DNA of 64,000 nt, taken from Marichromatium purpuratum 984 (GTDB lineage: Bacteria > Pseudomonadota > Gammaproteobacteria > Chromatiales > Chromatiaceae). The position numbers and the translations under genes are program-made. Positions 24,331-53,942 of the stretch are shown here, in pieces. Below the pieces are notes generated by a model. The model was given only the letters and a program-made list of their open reading frames with translations. It was not told the DNA's origin and made no database searches. The stretch spans positions 421,501 to 485,500 of the forward strand of contig NZ_CP007031.1 of assembly GCF_000224005.2 (NCBI RefSeq). Reading direction: 5' to 3'. How positions within the stretch are numbered: the first letter of the stretch is position 1; each line of letters opens with the position of its first letter.

Positions 24331-24332
24331 TG

Positions 24333-24393
24333 CTGGCGGCTGGCGGCTGGCGGCTGGCGGCTGGCGGCTGGCGGCTGGCGGCTGGCGGCTGGC
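24333..24393. repeat. Tandem heptamer array (CTGGCGG x8)
   Basis: Eight perfect CTGGCGG units (24333-24388) and a partial ninth follow the solitary right arm. The unit differs from the first array at two positions (TC to CG), so each array appears homogenised separately. The hemerythrin gene starts about 85 bases downstream. Confidence 0.92.
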
Positions 24394-24476
24394 GTCGTCC
24401 TCGGCTACAGTCGGCGTTTGTTTCGGCGTGGCCCCGGCCGCCACGTCCGCTCCGTGTCATCCCACAGGTATTCCCC

Positions 24477-43673: not shown

Positions 43674-46442
43674 TCAGCTACCGCGCAGCTTGGGTGGACG
43701 GGGCTCGGGCTTTTGACTGATACGGTGCTCGAGCTGCTCGGGCGGAAGCGGCGGGGCGTAGAGTTCGCCCTGGGCGTGCGGACAGCCGATGGTGAGCAGC
43801 AGTTCGCGCTGACCCTCGGTACGTACGCCATCGGCGAGCAGGCCGATCTCGAACGACTGGGCGAGGGCGACGATGGCGTGTACCACGTCGAGATCCTCCT
43901 GGGCCTCGGGCAGGTTCTCGATGAAGCCGCGATGGATGCTCAGGGTGCCCACCGACAGCCGGCGCAACAGCGAGGGGGCGAGCCAGCCGGCGCCGACGTC
44001 ACGCAGCGTCAGGTGGACGCCGAGCTGGTGCAGGGCGGCGAACAGCTCGACGATCTGATCGCTGTGCTTGAGCAGCAGCCCCTCGGTGAACTCCAGCTCG
44101 AGCTGATCGCCGGCGAGTCCGTGGGTGTCGAGCGCGCGTGCGATGGTGCTGGCCAGATCGAGTCGCAGCAGCAGCGGCTCGGAGACGTTCAGCGCCAGTC
44201 GTCCGACCGGCAGCCCCCGGCTGCGCCAGCGCTGGAACTGCTCGCAGGCGCGGTTCAGCGTCCAGTGCCCGAGTTCGACGAGGAAGCCGCCGTCATCGGT
44301 CAGTGGCAGGAAGCGCTCGGGCGCGACCAAGCCGAGTTGCGGCTGGTTCCAGCGCGCCATCGCCTCGATGCCGCACCATCGACCCGACTCGACGTCGACG
44401 CGCGGTTGGTAATGGAGCTGGAAATCACCGCGCTCGAGCCCCTCGCGCAGCTGGCCGATGAGCCGCTGGCGCTCCTCGGCGGCGGCGTCGGTGTGGATCG
44501 CCAGGCAGCGATAGGCGTTGCGTCCGCCCTGCTTGACCGCGCGCAGCGCCGATTCGGCCTTGGCGAGCAGCAGGTCGCGGTCGCGGCCGGTGCTGGGATC
44601 GAAGGCGATGCCGATGCTGGCGGTGACGAAGACCTCGTGTTCGCGGATGTGAAAGGGCGCGGCGAGGCAGTTCTGCAGTCGCTGGGCGATCGATTCGGCC
44701 TCACCGATCCCGGGGATCTCCTCGAAGATCAGGCCGAACTGATTGGCGCTGAGTCGGGCGAGGGTGTCGGCCGGGCGGATCTCGCTGCGCAGGCGCAGCG
44801 CCACCGAGCGCAGCAGTTCGTCGCCGATTTGCGGGCCGAGATGGGTGTTGATGTTGGCGAAGCGGTCGAGATCGATGAGGAAGAGGGCGAGCGGGATCTG
44901 CTTGCGCTGGCGCAGCTCGATGGCGTGCTCCAGCCGGGAGTTGAACAGCAGCCGGTTGGGCAGCTTGGTGAGCTGATCGTAGTGGGCCAGGTACTCGGCG
45001 CGGCGCGGGGTGTTGAGGGTGGCGCTGTGCTCGGCGAAGACGCCGACATAGTTGAGCAGGTTGCCACGGGCGTCGACGATGCGGTGGATGGCCAGGCGCT
45101 GGAGATAGATCTCGCCGTCCTTGCGGCGGTTCCAGACCTCGCCGATCCAGGAGCCGTGCTTGAGCAGGTGACGCCACATGCCGACGAAGAAGCTGCGCGG
45201 GTGCCAGTGCGAGTTGAGCAGGCTGGGATTGCGACCGAGGACTTCGGCCTCGGTATAGCCGGTGATGCGGCTGAAGGCGGCGTTGACGGCGATGATGCCG
45301 CCCTCGGGGTCGGTGATCAGCACGCCCTCGGAGGTCGCGGCATAGACTGCGGCCGACTGCAGCAGACGGCGCTCGGCCTCGCGCACCAGGGTGACATCGC
45401 GGACATTGATCACCGCGCCGGCAAGCTGGTCGTCGTCGCCGTGGTGTGGACTGACCCGTATCTCGAGGTCGCGTGGTTCGCCGTCGGGGCCGGGGCGACG
45501 CAGATCCTCAGCATGCTCCTTGGCGTGCGCGAGACAGTGCTCCAGTGCCTGCTGCAGCGCGGCGCCGAGTGTCTGGTCGGAGATCACCCGGCCAAGTGGC
45601 TGATCGATGACCGCGTCGTAGTCACGATCGAGCGCGTTGAGGAAGGCGCGGTTGACGGCGCGGATGTGGTGCTCGGGATCGACGAAGGCGAGCCGCTCGG
45701 ATGAGGCGGCGAGGATCTCGCTGTAGTGCGAGAGCGCCTGCTCGGCGCGGTAGCGCTCGGTGATGTCCATGACCACGCCGCAGATACGGGCGTCGCTCTC
45801 GGTGGCGCGCGGGTCGATATGGCCGGTGCCCTCGACCCAGCACTCGCTGCCATCGGGGCGCTGCAGCCTGAAGCGCACCTGGATCGGTGCGTGGGATTCT
45901 CCCGCCTGCTCGAGGGCCTGCTCGACGCGCGGACGGTCGTCGGGGTGGATGAGCCCGAGCGCGTCCTCGAGCATCAGCATCTCGGTCGGGGGCAGCCCCC
46001 AGATGTCGTACCAGGTGCGGGTGACGCGGACCTGACCGGTCGCCACCTCGAGCTGCCAGTTGGCGACCCGGGCGAAGGCCTGGGCTTCTTCGGTATGGGC
46101 TGGATACTGGTTTGCGAGTTCGCTCCGGGCGGTATCCATGACCATGACCAGCCATTGCGTCTCCTGGTTCTGGTAAGGCGATACCGCCAACTGTGCCCTC
46201 AGCTGCCCGTTCTTGGTCGCCAGCAGGATATTCAGTCGCCGCGGCGATGCCTCGTGAGTGGCGATGTCGAACTGTGCGAGTAGCGCGGGGGAGGCATATG
46301 CGAGCAGATCGCTGAAGCATGTGCCGCGCAGTTCGGTGCCGGGCTTGCCGATCAGTTCGAGAAGCGGGCGATTGACTTCGGTGATGCGCAGTCCTTGGTC
46401 AAGGAGGAGCGCTCCTTGCGGGATGGCTGAGAGCAGAGACAT
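43674..46442 (-). CDS. PAS-GGDEF-EAL protein with degenerate catalytic motifs
   Basis: This 922-residue soluble protein has about four PAS-like segments (1-105, 120-235, 240-355, 365-480), then a GGDEF-like domain (~485-650) and an EAL-like domain (~660-905). The GGDEF site reads SANQF (565-569). In EAL the motif is EAM (693-695), the DD pair is R814-D815, the KID motif is SIH (835-837) and AEGVE is ADGVR (870-874), so several metal and catalytic residues are gone. Neither activity is expected; a c-di-GMP-sensing or docking role is more likely. It lies just beyond the pilus operon on the same strand. Confidence 0.88.
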   Translation of the reverse strand: MSLLSAIPQGALLLDQGLRITEVNRPLLELIGKPGTELRGTCFSDLLAYASPALLAQFDIATHEASPRRLNILLATKNGQLRAQLAVSPYQNQETQWLVMVMDTARSELANQYPAHTEEAQAFARVANWQLEVATGQVRVTRTWYDIWGLPPTEMLMLEDALGLIHPDDRPRVEQALEQAGESHAPIQVRFRLQRPDGSECWVEGTGHIDPRATESDARICGVVMDITERYRAEQALSHYSEILAASSERLAFVDPEHHIRAVNRAFLNALDRDYDAVIDQPLGRVISDQTLGAALQQALEHCLAHAKEHAEDLRRPGPDGEPRDLEIRVSPHHGDDDQLAGAVINVRDVTLVREAERRLLQSAAVYAATSEGVLITDPEGGIIAVNAAFSRITGYTEAEVLGRNPSLLNSHWHPRSFFVGMWRHLLKHGSWIGEVWNRRKDGEIYLQRLAIHRIVDARGNLLNYVGVFAEHSATLNTPRRAEYLAHYDQLTKLPNRLLFNSRLEHAIELRQRKQIPLALFLIDLDRFANINTHLGPQIGDELLRSVALRLRSEIRPADTLARLSANQFGLIFEEIPGIGEAESIAQRLQNCLAAPFHIREHEVFVTASIGIAFDPSTGRDRDLLLAKAESALRAVKQGGRNAYRCLAIHTDAAAEERQRLIGQLREGLERGDFQLHYQPRVDVESGRWCGIEAMARWNQPQLGLVAPERFLPLTDDGGFLVELGHWTLNRACEQFQRWRSRGLPVGRLALNVSEPLLLRLDLASTIARALDTHGLAGDQLELEFTEGLLLKHSDQIVELFAALHQLGVHLTLRDVGAGWLAPSLLRRLSVGTLSIHRGFIENLPEAQEDLDVVHAIVALAQSFEIGLLADGVRTEGQRELLLTIGCPHAQGELYAPPLPPEQLEHRISQKPEPRPPKLRGS

Positions 46443-46552
46443 AAAGGGTTCGGGAAAGGTTTTTTTTCGGTTTCAGGGAGGTGTGTCGTTCCTGAATCGA
46501 TCGGGGAGTTTGGCCGGTTCATATGATTTGGATATCCGTTTTCCGGTCTGGG

Positions 46553-46963
46553 TTACCAGCAGCCACTGACGCCGCCACTGCCGGATGCCCCTTTCTTCCC
46601 TGACTGGTCCAGGCTCAATGTCGCGCACTTGGTGTCATGTGTGCTTTGTGCGCCGATGGGGAGTGCTTCTATGGTGTAGGTGCTGCGGCCGAGATCCTTG
46701 ACGGTGATGGTGTATCTGGCATCGATACCGTCATCGCTGCTGCAGGACAGGTTCGGGGCGGCGCCCGCGTACGACATGTTTTCGGTGTAATAACGCTCCA
46801 TGAACTGGGCGTATTCACCGATACAGGATTTGGCACGCCCACGATAGGTCTTGGTGACCTGGTCGATATAGGAGGGGTAGGCGATCGCTGCCAGTATGCC
46901 GATGATGGCAACGGTGATCATCAGCTCGATCAGCGAGAAACCAGCGCTGTGCTTCTTTCCCAT
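46553..46963 (-). CDS. Type IV pilin-like protein PilE
   Basis: This 136-residue prepilin has a short leader MGKKHSAG and PilD cleavage before FSLIELMITVAIIGILAA, with the conserved E5. The C-terminal domain has cysteines at 47, 74, 113 and 135, and ends GVSGCW. PilE of the minor pilin set in Pseudomonas has this size. The frame is open well upstream, but the start at 46963, 4 bases after the pilY1 stop, is set by the prepilin leader. It is last in the minor pilin operon. Confidence 0.9.
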   Translation of the reverse strand: MGKKHSAGFSLIELMITVAIIGILAAIAYPSYIDQVTKTYRGRAKSCIGEYAQFMERYYTENMSYAGAAPNLSCSSDDGIDARYTITVKDLGRSTYTIEALPIGAQSTHDTKCATLSLDQSGKKGASGSGGVSGCW

Positions 46964-46967
46964 GAGC

Positions 46968-49900
46968 TTAGTACTCCAGGATCTCTCGCCAGGAGGCGCG
47001 GTTGATCGAACTCTCCGGTGCACGGATCTGGATCGTCTCGGTATCGCTGTTGTCGAGAACGACCTGCATGAAGTTGGCGACGAAGGTCGGTTGGTTGGGG
47101 ACGTGCGAGAATCCGATCCCGGATACCGGGGTCGGTTCGCCGCCGACGTCGAGCGTGTCACTCTGGTCGAATTCCCCGTCTCGGTCAATGTCGAAGATCC
47201 CCTCGCTGAGTCTGGCGCCGGTGAAGGGGTCGATCGCCATGACGAAGCCGTTACCCGTGGGTTGGCAACTGTCACTCGAGTCGGGTATGCGGGTGGTGCT
47301 GAACAGGACTGCGCCCTGGAATTGGTTGGGCAGGGTCATGCGCTCGCCCTCGCGACCATTGACCGGTGAGACGAGGTCGATGTACCAGCCGCTCTTGTCC
47401 TTCAGATCGTCGCTCCCTCCCTCGGAGACGACCCTGACGGCCAGCTCGTCGACCAGCCCTTCGGCCAGGATCTGGCGAGCAACGAGGTTGGAGCGGCTGG
47501 AGATGGTCTGACCTTCGTCGACCAGGCCGTACCAGGTTTGCACTTGTGTGTCGGCGATATCGGTCTCGTTGAGATAACGACCGGTGCCGAAGAAGACCCA
47601 GCGTAGATCGCTGTCGGGATCGACGCCGACCAAGGGTGAGGCGGTGATGGGCTGAGCGATGTTCGAGGCATCTGTCGCAGTGAACAGTAATCTGCTCTGT
47701 GGGGTGTTGCTGGAAAGGTTCTCGAACCTCCACAGGTTGCCCTTCAGGTCGCCGGCATAGGCAGTGTCGGTGAAGCCGTCACCGTTCGAGTCCCATGCAT
47801 AGATCGCCGACAAGGCGTTGTCGGTTACCGCCGTCGGCTCCACGCTCACCGCGTTGCCGTCGGCCACGTTGATCACCAACAGCTGGGCTGTGCCGCTCTG
47901 GTTGTCCGGGCCGTTGCCGAGCAGGACGCGCCAGTCGCCGTCGTCGACCTGAGCGACGATCGGCTTGCCGATGTTGCGGCCGAGTCCGGGGATGTCTTGT
48001 TCGTCCCTTTCCCAGAGCAGCGAAATGTTGGTCGGATCGGTGACATCCAGTGCGAATACCCCGGGGCCGCCTCGCCCCAAGGTCCCGATCAGCACGCTCC
48101 TCCAGGCCCCCGAGGTATAGACGTCTGCCACCGTCAGCTCACCATCGACGAAGTAGCGATGGGCATAGTCGGGATTGGCCAGGGACACGAGGCCTTTCGA
48201 GAAGACAGCGTTGGGGATGAATGCGTAGACCTCTTCTCCGGTGGCGGCATCGAATGCATGCAGCATGCCGTCGTTTGCGCCGACGTAGAGTGTTGCTGAA
48301 CGACTCTGCTGGTTGCGACTGAAATTGGCATAGCTGCTGGCGCCGAGGAAGGTTGCGCCGACATAAAAGGACGGGTCGGGTGAGGACACATGGACAGGTG
48401 CTGAGTTGACGATGTCGCCGAGCAGGTGCTGGCGACTCCTCAGGGTTCCGCTCGGCGTTTCGTTCGAGGTGTCTCCACGGAGATAGTCGACGATCGAACT
48501 CGATTGCAGGAGAGCTTGCTGAGAGCTGCTGAGATTATCCCAGGTGAAAGGTTCGGCGGTTTGCGAGTCCGGGCGGTTGAAGAAGATCTTGCGGGCATCC
48601 CAGGCAGGAAGAGCGTCGTTTGCGCTCCACTCCGGTGTTTCGCTGAGGACTCCGGTCTGGGTGTCCATGCTGAAGGCCTCGACATCTCCGTCCCAGGAAC
48701 CGCTGACGAAGCTCGCTTGGTAGCTTCTGGTGTCGGTACTCAGCTCCGATGAGTTGGTCGCCAGTCCGCTCCCGGTTCCCACGGTCTCCTCGACGATGTT
48801 GCTGAATGCCTGGGTCAGGCTTTCGATCATCTTGTCAGCTTCGCTGGCGACATAGAAGTTGTCGGGGCGCTTGTCGCCTGTCGACAGGATGTCGCCTGTC
48901 GTGTGCCACCAGCTGTCGGGGAGTGGTTCGGTCTGCTCGTAGGTTCGGTAGTCGTCCGGTACGGAGAAGCCGCCGTACTTGGTGGCGAGCCAGTACTGAT
49001 TGCGCGCGCGCGACTCCAGTCTTTGCGCCTCGCGGACATCGACCCAGTAGGTCGACACGGTTTGCTTGTCGATAAGGTCTGGACGGATATCGCGGGTATG
49101 GGCGTCATAGGCGAGTCCCACGATGTAGGCCGAGTTCTCGCGTCCGGTGAAGGGGGTATTGATGGTGATGCCTTCGAGGAGCGCGACGCGCTGGGTCGCG
49201 GTCACGACGTCGATGCTACTGTCGCCGCTGACTTCGCTTGGGACCGCCGGTTCGTCGCGGGTCCGGCTGTTGCCCGGCAGGTTCTTGTCCCTGTGGGTGT
49301 TGGCGTCGCCGATGCCGAGGATGACGCTCTTCTGGCAGTAGTGCTGGATGGGGTCCTGCCATGAGGTGATGACGGGGAAGCCATCGGCAAGCTGATATTG
49401 CTGGCTGTAAGAGCCCGAGATGTCCGAGTATCCGGAGACATTTCCCTGATGCTTGAAGTAGCGTAGCGCGGCATAGAAGAGTTCGCTGACCGGGTCGATG
49501 CTCTTGTGGTTCGTGCTGGTCATCTCGCCGAACTTGTTGAGATAGTTGATGACGCCGCTATCCTCGACACCGGCCGCGCCGAGCGTCAAGGTGATATCCG
49601 ATGGGGTTGGGTTTGGGGTCAGGACGCCGGTCGCCAGGTCCCATTCGGGGTTCGGGTTCTCGATGGTGAGTCCGGAGTCATCGATCATGTTCTCTCCGAT
49701 GAAGCGCATTCCGGCTCTGAGTACTCCGCCGTCCCGATATTTGTTCGAGTCGTTCAGGTATCCGAAGACCGCATAGCGAATCCTGCTCGAGTACTCCTGA
49801 AGCAATCCCTCGGGTTTGTAATGACTGCCGTATCGTACACAGTTCGCCTCGAGTGAAACGCTCGGGTCGCAGACCTTGACGCGAACATGTGCCTCGAAGG

Positions 49901-51158
49901 TGCTCGACTGGGAGTCAGAAGATTTCAATGGATAGGGAATGTCGCTGTCCGTGGTCGACACCGACAGGTCGTCGATATAATACGTGTGCCCACCATGGAC
50001 GACGACACGATCGAAGCGGTTGTAGCTGTTGTCGGTGATCCCGCTGATACTGCCGAGCTGCTGATTCCTGTCATCAAAGACCTGGAGTGAAAGCTCGCCA
50101 TCATCGTGTGAGGTGAGAACGAAGCGATACCACTCGTCTTCAGGTCTGTTCCAGCTCTGTCTGGATCCCACCGATGATGCACTGCCACTGTTGCGCTTTT
50201 CGATGCCGAATTGTGTGCTGGTGAATACGATGCCGTAGCCGTCGAAGTCAGAATCGCTGATCGACAGGCGATCGGCATTTCCTCCTCCGCTGTTCGATGG
50301 GCGATAGATCCAGCCGGTGAAGACGAAATTGCGATCGATCGTTTGGGGCATTGTCCTGTAGCCCCCATTGGGATCGTTCGAGCTCGTCTTGCGCAGGCTG
50401 CCGGGTATCGCATCGACAGAGCGCGAGCTGTCTCTTGACACCTCTCCGTTACGATACCTGTTCCACCCGGAAGAGAAATCTGAGTCTGCGAAGACCTGCT
50501 GGCTCGCTTGTGCGTTACCGATCGAACCGAAATCGTTCGGTAGAGTGAAATACATCCTGTTGCCGAGACCGTTGATGCGAATGTTTATCCAATCGGCTGC
50601 GAAGGGGGTTGCGCCAGAGACGAGCGATTCATCGCTTCCGGATTGAGGTGTTCTTCGCTCGGGATAGACATTGGTGCCGCCCTGGCCATCGTGTCTTGCC
50701 TTTTGCAGCCAGGTTTCCCCGACTGTGTCGCGGTATCTGTATCCCCCCGAAAGGGCCGCGCGGAAGGGGTCGATGGTCTGGGTTGCCGCCCAGTTCATGA
50801 AGTTTCCACTCCATTCACCATCTCCAGAGCACCTGTGATCGTTGGTGGTGGATGAAGGGTAGAAATGGCGTTCTTCCTCGGCCGACTCGATGCCTTCGTA
50901 GCGATAGCACTTGTTCGAGTCGAAGTAACCTGCGTAGGCGCGGTCCTCGGTGTACGCGCCGAGGTTGGCGAGGCTGTTGATCGTGGGCCACTCCACGGAG
51001 GGGACCAGCGCGAGGTTGCCGGGTACATTGGTTCCTACGGACAGGGGGGTCTGTGAAACCATGTCTGCGCATGCCAGCTGTGAGATCAAGAGCGTGGCCA
51101 GTGTCAGCTTGATTTTGGTGATCGACCTTCTCGGGCGGTTCTCGAGTTCAGTGTGCAT
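46968..51158 (-). CDS. pilY1: Type IV pilus tip adhesin PilY1 with lectin-like insertion
   Basis: This 1396-residue secreted protein has a signal peptide (about 1-31, cleavage near CA-DMV). The conserved opening (VPSVEWPTINS, DSNKCYRYEG, GEWSGNFMNWAATQTID) is followed at about 224-402 by a segment that looks like a jelly-roll lectin/LamG-type domain (GWIYRPSNSGGG, YGIVFTSTQFGIEKRN, WYRFVLTSHDDGELSLQVFD). That segment separates MYFTLPNDF from VRVKVCDPS, which are normally close. The C-terminal beta-propeller (YVGANDGMLHAFDAATGEEV, RYFVDGELTVADV) holds the PilY1 calcium loop DSNGDGFTD near residue 1120. It drives pilus extension, adhesion and surface sensing. Base composition is lower in GC than flanking genes. 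Confidence 0.93.
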   Translation of the reverse strand: MHTELENRPRRSITKIKLTLATLLISQLACADMVSQTPLSVGTNVPGNLALVPSVEWPTINSLANLGAYTEDRAYAGYFDSNKCYRYEGIESAEEERHFYPSSTTNDHRCSGDGEWSGNFMNWAATQTIDPFRAALSGGYRYRDTVGETWLQKARHDGQGGTNVYPERRTPQSGSDESLVSGATPFAADWINIRINGLGNRMYFTLPNDFGSIGNAQASQQVFADSDFSSGWNRYRNGEVSRDSSRSVDAIPGSLRKTSSNDPNGGYRTMPQTIDRNFVFTGWIYRPSNSGGGNADRLSISDSDFDGYGIVFTSTQFGIEKRNSGSASSVGSRQSWNRPEDEWYRFVLTSHDDGELSLQVFDDRNQQLGSISGITDNSYNRFDRVVVHGGHTYYIDDLSVSTTDSDIPYPLKSSDSQSSTFEAHVRVKVCDPSVSLEANCVRYGSHYKPEGLLQEYSSRIRYAVFGYLNDSNKYRDGGVLRAGMRFIGENMIDDSGLTIENPNPEWDLATGVLTPNPTPSDITLTLGAAGVEDSGVINYLNKFGEMTSTNHKSIDPVSELFYAALRYFKHQGNVSGYSDISGSYSQQYQLADGFPVITSWQDPIQHYCQKSVILGIGDANTHRDKNLPGNSRTRDEPAVPSEVSGDSSIDVVTATQRVALLEGITINTPFTGRENSAYIVGLAYDAHTRDIRPDLIDKQTVSTYWVDVREAQRLESRARNQYWLATKYGGFSVPDDYRTYEQTEPLPDSWWHTTGDILSTGDKRPDNFYVASEADKMIESLTQAFSNIVEETVGTGSGLATNSSELSTDTRSYQASFVSGSWDGDVEAFSMDTQTGVLSETPEWSANDALPAWDARKIFFNRPDSQTAEPFTWDNLSSSQQALLQSSSIVDYLRGDTSNETPSGTLRSRQHLLGDIVNSAPVHVSSPDPSFYVGATFLGASSYANFSRNQQSRSATLYVGANDGMLHAFDAATGEEVYAFIPNAVFSKGLVSLANPDYAHRYFVDGELTVADVYTSGAWRSVLIGTLGRGGPGVFALDVTDPTNISLLWERDEQDIPGLGRNIGKPIVAQVDDGDWRVLLGNGPDNQSGTAQLLVINVADGNAVSVEPTAVTDNALSAIYAWDSNGDGFTDTAYAGDLKGNLWRFENLSSNTPQSRLLFTATDASNIAQPITASPLVGVDPDSDLRWVFFGTGRYLNETDIADTQVQTWYGLVDEGQTISSRSNLVARQILAEGLVDELAVRVVSEGGSDDLKDKSGWYIDLVSPVNGREGERMTLPNQFQGAVLFSTTRIPDSSDSCQPTGNGFVMAIDPFTGARLSEGIFDIDRDGEFDQSDTLDVGGEPTPVSGIGFSHVPNQPTFVANFMQVVLDNSDTETIQIRAPESSINRASWREILEY

Positions 51159-51176
51159 GGAGCTTGCCCCGCGATG

Positions 51177-51761
51177 TCAGAGGTTCCTTTCAAAGATGCC
51201 CGAGAGGACGACGAGTGCACGATCCTGTACCGCGGTCGGGCTGGCGCTCCGCGCGATGACGCGATAGTAAGCGACTTCGCCGCCGCCGCCGCCGCCGCCG
51301 TACTGCATGTTGTTGGCGCTGTTGCTGGAATTGAGCGAGGTTGTACTGGGTGCCTTACCGAGATAGTGGATCTGATATTGCGGTGCACCCGTGACCATGC
51401 CGTCGTTGATCCGGTATTCGGTGTCGACGGTGATCCAGTTGGTGTCGTCGGCCTGGAAGGTTTCTGGTGGAACGGGCTGGCAGCTGTTGGTGCTGGTCGG
51501 CGAGCAGTCGACTCCACCGAGCGCGCTGATCTCCCAGTCCTCGGCGATCGCGCTCTGGGCCGCGCGCAGCGCGGCCTCGCTCATCTGCATGGCGAGCGAG
51601 CGGTCGTAGGTGTTGGCGCTCATCTTCTCCTGGACCCTTGCCTGTTTGATTCCGGAGAGGCCGATCAGGGTGGCGACCATGAGCAGGATCATGGAGATGG
51701 CGAGCGCCGCGCCGCGCTGCGAGGATGGCGTGCCCGAAATCGGCTGCTTGATCGTGTTCAT
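51177..51761 (-). CDS. pilX: Type IV pilus minor pilin PilX
   Basis: This 194-residue protein has a PilX-type N-terminus: basic leader, then GAALAISMILLMVATLIGLSG as the membrane helix, without the Glu5 of other pilins, as is normal for PilX. A glycine run of seven (NMQYGGGGGGGEV) is encoded by a GCC/CCG repeat at about 51279-51300 on the plus strand. It overlaps pilW by 4 bases and pilY1 starts 18 bases later. PilX primes pilus assembly with the other minor pilins and PilY1. Confidence 0.9.
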   Translation of the reverse strand: MNTIKQPISGTPSSQRGAALAISMILLMVATLIGLSGIKQARVQEKMSANTYDRSLAMQMSEAALRAAQSAIAEDWEISALGGVDCSPTSTNSCQPVPPETFQADDTNWITVDTEYRINDGMVTGAPQYQIHYLGKAPSTTSLNSSNSANNMQYGGGGGGGEVAYYRVIARSASPTAVQDRALVVLSGIFERNL

Positions 51762-52759
51762 TGTGCGCGATTTCTCAATGAGACCAGATAGGTTTGTCGT
51801 CCATCCGTTGTGCTTGCGATAGAGATGTTCTGTGCGGTACTGGCGAACGTCAGGGTGATCTCGACCGCGTTGACGTTGCTCCAGTCGGTTATCGTCTCGA
51901 CGAATTGATTACTGCCGGACAGGCGATAGCGCAACTGCATGTCGGTGACGCCGGGGATGATCTCGGTGGCTTCTGCTTCCGGGGTTCCGGAGCTTCCGAC
52001 CTCGAGCATCGCACGATAAAGACCTCGCCCGCCTTCAGTCGCTCGTTCATTGTTGCCGATATACCAGAAGGTGGCGTTGAGCCTGGAGACAGAGGCGTTC
52101 TTTGGAAACTGGTGGTTCTTGGCCGCTGCCGGCTTGCATGCGTGGGGATGGTCAAGGCCCGTGGTGCAGTTGCCGGGGGTCCCGCCCGTATCGCTGTAGC
52201 CGATGATCCCGGATGACTGGTTATAGGTGTTCGCCTGGAAGATGGTCGCGTGGTCGTTGTCGCAAACGATCAGGATCTCGCCGGCTTCGATGTCCGTGGA
52301 TGCCGGATCGATGGTGATTTGGGTGCCGCTGACATCGTGTGTGGAAACGCCAAAGCCGTTGTCGCGGATCGACTGCAGCTGTAATGCATCGGTGCCATTG
52401 ACGCGTCCGCCGTTGCTCGATGAGAAACCGATCGCTGATGCGGCCTCGTCACCCTTATATCCCTGGATCGGACGCCATGTTGCCCACCACTCCGGGGAGG
52501 TGTTGAGTACGCTGGAGATCCGCTCGTTGCCACAGCCGGTACTGCCCGCCTGACGGATGTCCCGGCTCAACAACTCGAAGGCCGTGCGTTGGTTCTCGAT
52601 CGTCTCCGCGAGCGCCTCGATCGTTCGTTGACTCTGACGGTTGGCGATGAGCGCGCTGATCGTGCCGCCGGTGACCACCAGGCCGAGCAGCATGGCGATC
52701 ATGAGTTCGACCAGGGTGAAGCCCTTGCTCGATCGGAGTGAAGTAAGCGGCTCTTTCAC
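51758..52759 (-). CDS. pilW: Type IV pilus minor pilin PilW
   Basis: This 333-residue prepilin has leader MKEPLTSLRSSKG and mature GFTLVELMIAMLLGLVVTGG. The large C-terminal domain contains ERATEGGRGLYR and ends VNAVEITLTF. Size and order between pilV and pilX identify PilW. Its start overlaps the pilV stop and its stop overlaps the pilX start, each by 4 bases, so the operon is translationally coupled. Confidence 0.92.
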   Translation of the reverse strand: MKEPLTSLRSSKGFTLVELMIAMLLGLVVTGGTISALIANRQSQRTIEALAETIENQRTAFELLSRDIRQAGSTGCGNERISSVLNTSPEWWATWRPIQGYKGDEAASAIGFSSSNGGRVNGTDALQLQSIRDNGFGVSTHDVSGTQITIDPASTDIEAGEILIVCDNDHATIFQANTYNQSSGIIGYSDTGGTPGNCTTGLDHPHACKPAAAKNHQFPKNASVSRLNATFWYIGNNERATEGGRGLYRAMLEVGSSGTPEAEATEIIPGVTDMQLRYRLSGSNQFVETITDWSNVNAVEITLTFASTAQNISIASTTDGRQTYLVSLRNRAQ

Positions 52760-53205
52760 AGTAATAACTCGATGGTGAATTGCTGCTGATCGCTGCCGGA
52801 TGTGCCGCGTGAGTCATCCCATTGCACAATGATGGTACAACTGTTGCCGGTGCACGAGACGCTGCCGGTCGCTCCATCCCCGAGGCTTTTGTCTATCCGT
52901 TCGCGCCACTTCGCCAGTGCGACTGCCGGGAAGCTGCTGCCCGTTGGGCTGTCCTGGGACAGAGTGATGTCGAAGTCGCCAGCCTTGGCGCGTTTCGGGA
53001 CCGCGCGCATCGCCTCGGTGATTGAGTAGGCGTGGATGATGGCCGCGTTCCTGTGGAGCGCGCTCTGGTTGTTTTTCAAGGCACGTATCTGTAACCCAGA
53101 GATGCCGAGCAGTCCGATCGAGAGGATGACGACGGCGACGAGCACCTCGATCAGGGTTGCTCCGGATGAAGACTCTTTTTGTTTGTGTGGCAGTGTGTGC
53201 TCCAT
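52756..53205 (-). CDS. pilV: Type IV pilus minor pilin PilV
   Basis: This 149-residue prepilin has the characteristic SGATLIEVLVAVVILSIGLLG start, in which the PilV/GspI-type cleavage site is followed by Glu5. Two cysteines in SCTGNSC near the C-terminus may form a loop. It lies between fimT/fimU-like and pilW and overlaps pilW by 4 bases. Confidence 0.9.
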   Translation of the reverse strand: MEHTLPHKQKESSSGATLIEVLVAVVILSIGLLGISGLQIRALKNNQSALHRNAAIIHAYSITEAMRAVPKRAKAGDFDITLSQDSPTGSSFPAVALAKWRERIDKSLGDGATGSVSCTGNSCTIIVQWDDSRGTSGSDQQQFTIELLL

Positions 53206-53216
53206 GATCCTGTGAC

Positions 53217-53786
53217 TCAGCAGCTGCTGTTATCGGAAGCGTCGCAACTCCTTATCCTTCCGGTAAAGTTGATCTCTATCTTTCTGGCTTTTCCTTGTAG
53301 TTTTATGAGGAAGGATTCTTCAGTTGAGCCGCCGCTGCCCTGGGAAAAACCGGAGGGCAGATAGCTGATGAAGTCCTTGAAGGAGTTCCCCGTGGTGATG
53401 GTGACGGCTGGGATGTTTTGTTCGTGTACGGAGATGATCTGATCGTTGCCGTCGATCTGACCTCTCGTGCCCCGGTCGGAGAAGATGATCCAGCCGTTTT
53501 CCCAGCCGGAGTCATCGGTGGCGCAAGCGGGTGAGTTGCTCGATGTGGTGGTCGATTTGCAAACGGTGACACGTGTGCCGCGCTTGATTGCCTCGGACCG
53601 CGCGACATGGAGCGCCTCCAGGAGGTCGTTGTTGATCACTGCGATACGGTTGGTGGCAACGATCTCGCGGAAGCTGGGTATCGCGACGCTGAGGATGATG
53701 GTGAGAATGCTGACGGTCACGATCAGCTCCAGCAAGGTGACGCCTTGTTGGCGGCTGCTGTCTCGAAATGGCTGAAATACTTTCAT
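53217..53786 (-). CDS. GspH/FimT-family minor pilin (FimT/FimU-like)
   Basis: This 189-residue prepilin has leader ending RQQG and mature VTLLELIVTVSILTIILSVAIPSF. The GspH/FimT pattern NNDLLEALHVARSEAIKRGTRVTVC is clear, as is the end SCDASDNSSC. It is first in the minus-strand pilin operon, so the promoter should be in the gap to fbp. FimU and FimT are hard to separate here; FimU is the usual name in this position. Confidence 0.9.
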   Translation of the reverse strand: MKVFQPFRDSSRQQGVTLLELIVTVSILTIILSVAIPSFREIVATNRIAVINNDLLEALHVARSEAIKRGTRVTVCKSTTTSSNSPACATDDSGWENGWIIFSDRGTRGQIDGNDQIISVHEQNIPAVTITTGNSFKDFISYLPSGFSQGSGGSTEESFLIKLQGKARKIEINFTGRIRSCDASDNSSC

Positions 53787-53909
53787 AAGCCCTGGGCTGA
53801 CCGCTGTCGGTTCGATCGTTGGCGACGGATCACGGCACTAGTCTAGTGCAAGGGCCGTGGTGCCGACCGGGCATGCTCCACAGTTGAAGCCTAAACCACA
53901 GCAAGGGTA

Positions 53910-53942
53910 GGGGTTCTGGGGGTACGGTGAACCCCTTATACT
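53910..53942 (+). promoter_or_regulatory. Putative fbp promoter with inverted-repeat operator
   Basis: GGGGTTC (53910-53916) and GAACCCC (53929-53935) form a perfect 7-bp inverted repeat with a 12-base spacer, ending one base before TATACT (53937-53942), a 5-of-6 match to the -10 box. The repeat covers the expected -35 region, where no good -35 box is seen, as in activator-dependent promoters. A CbbR-type (T-N11-A) or other dimeric regulator could bind, but this is speculative. Confidence 0.45.

Follow-up and report, generated by a model that had tools for sequence, protein, structure and literature searches.

The locus raises the question of what the additional residues near the N-terminus of its PilY1 protein are, and how a pilus operon that carries them came to stand where it does. 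The window, i.e. the whole stretch of 64,000 nucleotides of Marichromatium purpuratum 984 that was analysed (contig NZ_CP007031.1, positions 421,501–485,500), encodes PilY1 in a single open frame of 1396 aa. Over the whole protein Pfam recognised the PilY1 propeller alone, well above its curated cut-off (28.1 bits). The gene order is fimT-pilV-pilW-pilX-pilY1-pilE and PilY1 is thus encoded alongside minor pilins and a PilE-type pilin, where the assignments of PilW and PilV rest partly on an N_methyl match and on gene position (Table 1).

Table 1. Features of the pilus tip operon and of its PilY1 protein (positions in the window; residues of PilY1).
Feature	Position	Strand	Basis or remark
pilY1, type IV pilus tip adhesin with inserted domain	46968..51158	-	PF05567, 171.6 bits
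Inserted segment, residues 208-418	49905..50537	-	missing from relatives
Lectin-like domain core, residues 222-403	49950..50495	-	A2 profile 217-402; modelled jelly roll 254-403
DPNGG motif, residues 262-266	50361..50375	-	invariant across domain family
Host strand preceding insert, MYFTLP, residues 202-207	50538..50555	-	
Host strand following insert, FEAHVRVKVC, residues 421-430	49869..49898	-	
Host vWA-fold domain, part 1, residues 32-207	50538..51065	-	model
Host vWA-fold domain, part 2, residues 420-800	48759..49901	-	model
SVEWPT at MIDAS DxSxS site, residues 54-59	50982..50999	-	compare IDDSGSM of paralogue
GDANTH at vWA TDG motif site, residues 617-622	49293..49310	-	
PilY1 C-terminal beta-propeller, residues 913-1218	47505..48422	-	PF05567
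PilE/ComP-type minor pilin, last gene of operon	46553..46963	-	PF16732, 3e-22
pilX	51177..51761	-	
pilW	51758..52759	-	PF16074 under its cut-off, 5e-4; N_methyl
pilV-like minor pilin	52756..53205	-	N_methyl above cut-off; position and sequence homology with other operons
fimT/fimU (GspH)	53217..53786	-	
Segment apparently replaced relative to congeners G001 and G003	46094..53929		break points approximate

The earlier note on this DNA had proposed that the strands MYFTLP and VRVKVC, adjacent in ordinary PilY1 proteins, are separated here by an inserted domain. This was borne out by about 35 related PilY1 proteins in which a short loop of roughly 15–60 residues joins the same two strands, while the protein of the window has around 200 residues more (208-418, with the domain core at 222-403). 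The 27 relatives that were aligned are 36–58% identical to it, and the nearest of the relatives align up to about residue 208 and pick up again at about 400–420. Proteins without the insert include those of Deefgea salmonis (L033, about 50% identity), of a second genome (G047/L004, 58%), and of two metagenome-assembled genomes (L034 and the Woeseiaceae L035), whose N-terminal parts are about 60% identical. Presence of the segment as a normal part of closely related PilY1 proteins, which the earlier note had named as a refutation, was thus not observed. Searched with a profile of the domain (A2), the other PilY1 frames that were fetched gave no match, and none of the Laminin_G_3 (PF13385) matches in 92 related genomes overlapped a PilY1 frame. 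Together with the short loop of the relatives, these profile results indicate that the extra length is specific to the PilY1 of the window. A frameshift or assembly error was ruled out because the reading frame has no interruption and the segment has its own family of homologues. Within 49700-50700 there were no direct repeats of 14 nt or longer, so that the route of insertion left no trace there. The length of the hairpin varies among relatives, and a distant one, the PilY1 of a Burkholderiaceae metagenome-assembled genome (L073, 4576-6834), is expanded at the same hairpin by about 130 unrelated residues, which implies that the site tolerates insertions.

A model of residues 32-816, built with the 27 relatives, gave pLDDT values mostly above 90 for the host domain. 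Its best VIA-align matches were von Willebrand A (vWA) domains: the pilus tip protein Mfa5 (6tnj, Z 14.7), the I domain of integrin (5hj2, Z 14.4) and S. sanguinis PilB (Z 13.7). Foldseek found no significant match for the 785-residue model, for which the insertions in the vWA domain are probably responsible. In this confident model the host domain adopts a vWA fold, and since the insert is placed between the modelled strands 201-205 and 420-429, it is a nested domain. The absence of a clear metal-ion-dependent adhesion site (MIDAS), also remarked earlier, held up: the motif (DxSxS ... T ... D) is not present, and SVEWPT stands where DxSxS is expected. SVExPT is invariant in the closest clade, and hence the loss of the MIDAS is not due to the insert. 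The vWA host fold itself had been missed in the earlier note, as had the small modular family of extracellular domains to which the insert belongs and the apparently foreign nature of the tip operon relative to congeners, both of which are described below.

Among folds, a LamG/concanavalin-type beta-sandwich fits the insert best, as judged from the structural matches of a low-confidence model and from profile comparison. Structure prediction and fold search did return lectin-type jelly rolls, but the model of the insert, folded from the single sequence without an alignment, reached a mean pLDDT of only 46 (58–77 over the central strands), and most of the insert stayed below 50 in the larger model built from an alignment. 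At this confidence its structural matches have to be read with care: Foldseek gave a probability of 1.00 to lectins, CBM66, CBM40 and S. sanguinis PilC (7oa8), and its top matches were mostly lectin-type jelly rolls (legume lectins, galectins, CBM66, CBM40, alginate lyase and PilC). With the same model (mean pLDDT 46), VIA-align matched galectins and the C-terminal domain of thrombospondin with Z 12–13 and rmsd 2.3–3.1 over 123–136 residues, the widest span covering model residues 57-206 or about 254-403 of the protein. Independently of any structure model, profile-profile comparison favoured ConA-like families over decoys. The score was 28.2 over 167 columns against PF06439-type sequences (maximum of 60 column shuffles 11.0, reversed profile 3.0) and 19.8 against Laminin_G_3 (shuffles at most 7.6, reversed 2.4), and unrelated parts of PilY1 scored 2.5–6.6. 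The hhalign probabilities were only 50% and 10%. Neither Pfam nor NCBIfam matched the insert itself, an insert homologue did not reach the curated cut-off of PF06439 (20.4 against 26.8), and sequence searches of the PDB gave nothing significant, the best hit being a CBM22-type xylanase module (4xup, E 0.13). Taken together, modelling and profile similarity make a ConA-like fold of the insert likely, though not proven.

Homologues of the insert are rare, occurring in four other genomes among about 1000 sampled, and none was seen in another PilY1. The class sample of 369 genomes held two besides the window's own (G161 and G370), the order sample of 210 genomes two more (G812 and G940), both in the window's own bacterial family, and the phylum-wide sample of 398 genomes no further ones. 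In G161 and G370 (L093 and L094) a surface protein of cohesin-like/cadherin/PKD type contains the domain inside a CARDB domain that it splits, with CARDB profile positions 1-47 preceding it and 50-98 following, a second and independent nesting of the domain. In G812 and G940 subtilase-type frames with He_PIG-like linkers have C-terminal copies of the domain, two in G812 and one in G940, where the subtilase part and the domain fall in two separate frames. The two tandem copies of G812 (L097, a subtilase frame of 1187 aa on the minus strand) are nearly identical, which suggests a recent duplication. Five sequences of the family have the motifs F-x-x-G-x-x-x-x-W, LRKT-x3-DPNGG, GYG and NGG in common, and identity to the copy of the window is 26–30%. 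A protein search of phages and plasmids yielded no insert homologue, and none was confirmed in viral contigs scanned with single sequences and profiles. Weak domain matches in two further genomes (G199 and G229) are at most distant ConA-like relatives and were left out. Laminin_G_3 domains also occur in the same bacterial family in two very long open frames, of 12,296 and 13,772 residues (G015:C8 and G805:C516).

PilY1 and minor pilins prime the pilus, and the variable N-terminal domain of PilY1 is located at the extreme tip (PMC7541494). Building on what is established, namely the insertion, the occurrence of related domains in further extracellular proteins, the confidently modelled vWA host fold and the operon difference between congeners, we propose, with a probability of roughly 0.6, that a ConA/LamG-type jelly roll is nested in the MIDAS-less vWA domain of PilY1, serves binding at the pilus tip and was delivered to the locus by an operon swap. 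The complex of PilY1 and minor pilins would then prime the pilus with the vWA end displayed outermost, and the looped-out domain, anchored by propeller and minor pilins, would be brought to the extreme tip to bind a glycan or other polymer, so that retraction may draw the cell toward the ligand. The putative ligand of the nested domain would most likely be a polysaccharide or glycan. Nothing points to sulfur, which had been suggested earlier as a second kind of surface.

A ConA/LamG-type insert need not be a lectin. LamG-like domains often bind protein, and among ConA-like domains many have protein or calcium as ligand, or no ligand at all. The insert could thus bind protein or calcium, or change the shape of the tip as a rigid spacer, and its homologues in the window's bacterial family are found at the C-termini of subtilases, a position at which an accessory domain may help folding or hold on to a protein substrate; no known sugar-binding signature or ligand residues were found in the insert. 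Still, a detachable accessory domain that recurs in unrelated secreted proteins is better explained as a binding module than as a spacer alone, and the fold matches of the insert model are mostly sugar binders, although a fold does not show function. We regard a non-lectin role as rather unlikely. That the insert is a passive, neutral acquisition tolerated in a loop, with adhesion left to the vWA domain and propeller, would agree with the variable hairpin and the expansion in L073, but is improbable, since retention of the frame, the core motifs (DPNGG, GYG, W) and the family pattern at 26–30% identity argues for selection on the insert, and a finger-like insertion in the same domain of Acinetobacter ComC is required for adhesion, twitching and competence (PMC10374093).

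The preferred reading, a nested lectin-type domain at the pilus tip, combines elements that are already known separately, namely insertions in the vWA domain of PilY1 and lectin modules at pilus tips. The protein shares propeller, vWA-type N-terminal domain and minor pilin operon with the PilY1/PilC tip adhesins (PF05567), and differs from them in its additional nested domain and degenerate MIDAS. Like the ComC/PilY1 variants of Acinetobacter (PMC10374093), it is a type IV pilus tip adhesin whose vWA scaffold has received a lineage-specific insertion; there, however, the inserted part forms a finger-like protrusion bearing a Tyr-rich motif, and the MIDAS is intact, whereas here a complete predicted lectin-type domain lies in a MIDAS-less vWA domain. 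The ConA-like module at the pilus tip of S. sanguinis is a true lectin (PMC9934059). This PilC module (7oa8, matched by the insert model with a Foldseek probability of 1.00) resembles the insert in being ConA-like and placed at a type IV pilus tip, but it comes from a monoderm, where it is grafted C-terminally onto a minor pilin, and its glycan binding was measured (PMC9934059), while the module of the window is nested in PilY1 and its lectin role is predicted. Laminin_G_3 (PF13385) and the 3-keto-disaccharide hydrolase/DUF1080 family (PF06439), both of the ConA-like clan, show colinear profile similarity to the insert over 149–167 columns, well above decoys; unlike their members the insert stays under the Pfam cut-offs, and DPNGG with the NGG-YY-D pattern is particular to its small family. 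The literature searched, which did not cover subscription papers, contained no PilY1 with a ConA-like insert, nor the combination that appears to be new, a complete domain of lectin type nested in the MIDAS-less vWA domain of a PilY1 and delivered with a swapped operon.

The second part of the question concerns the operon as a whole. Two congeners (G001 and G003) have the same neighbours around the locus as the window: genes for a carbonic-anhydrase-like protein, a TPR-methyltransferase and a PAS-GGDEF-EAL protein on one side and for fructose-bisphosphatase and PhoH on the other. Flanking proteins of the window are 92–99.5% identical to those of G001 (the flanks 96–97% in DNA) and 81–96% to those of G003, but the proteins of the pilus operon share only 31–44% identity with the congeners (31–42% with G001). 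The congeners themselves are 86% identical in DNA across the entire locus, and their PilY1 proteins are 77% identical and have the MIDAS VLDNSNSM. The window and G001 cease to match near position 46094, which lies within the 5' portion of the EAL gene, and become similar again near 53929. The 5' end of that gene is diverged at 46094-46442, from which a donor with the same EAL gene beside its operon would be expected. The GC content is 59.3% in the operon of the window and 55.1% in the insert, against 68–71% in the flanks and 66–67.5% in the operons of the congeners. The simplest reading of this low-GC segment of about 7.8 kb is that recombination between the conserved neighbours put it in the place of a different, MIDAS-bearing tip operon. 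That the operon of the window is the incoming one is supported, though not proven, by base composition and the two congeners, from which alone the native state at the locus is deduced.

Such a swap of the tip operon would alter what the pilus adheres to, and it suggests that bacteria can re-aim their pili through exchange of tip modules. This matters because tip ligands of diderm type IV pili are known in few cases. Relatives that lack just this domain and congeners with another operon at the same place provide a clean natural comparison for the surface specificity of a candidate binding domain. We also put forward, tentatively, that tips evolve at two levels: operon cassettes would be exchanged at a fixed locus, and the vWA hairpin would be a hot spot that takes plug-in lectins, with a metal-dependent vWA tip replaced here by a MIDAS-less vWA domain whose nested lectin may have taken over ligand binding.

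The pilin gene 3' of pilY1 (46553-46963) matches PF16732, the family of the DNA-uptake-sequence receptor ComP, which raises the question of sequence-selective DNA uptake. A short repetitive stretch of the window (24332-24394) matches a repeat near gcvR of congener G001. Lastly, a second full minor-pilin/pilY1 operon lies at about 2.66 Mb in the same genome (L096, region G000:C1:2663618). Its PilY1 (P0002) has 1301 aa, the canonical MIDAS IDDSGSM and an Asp-rich run, and G001 has a similar operon.
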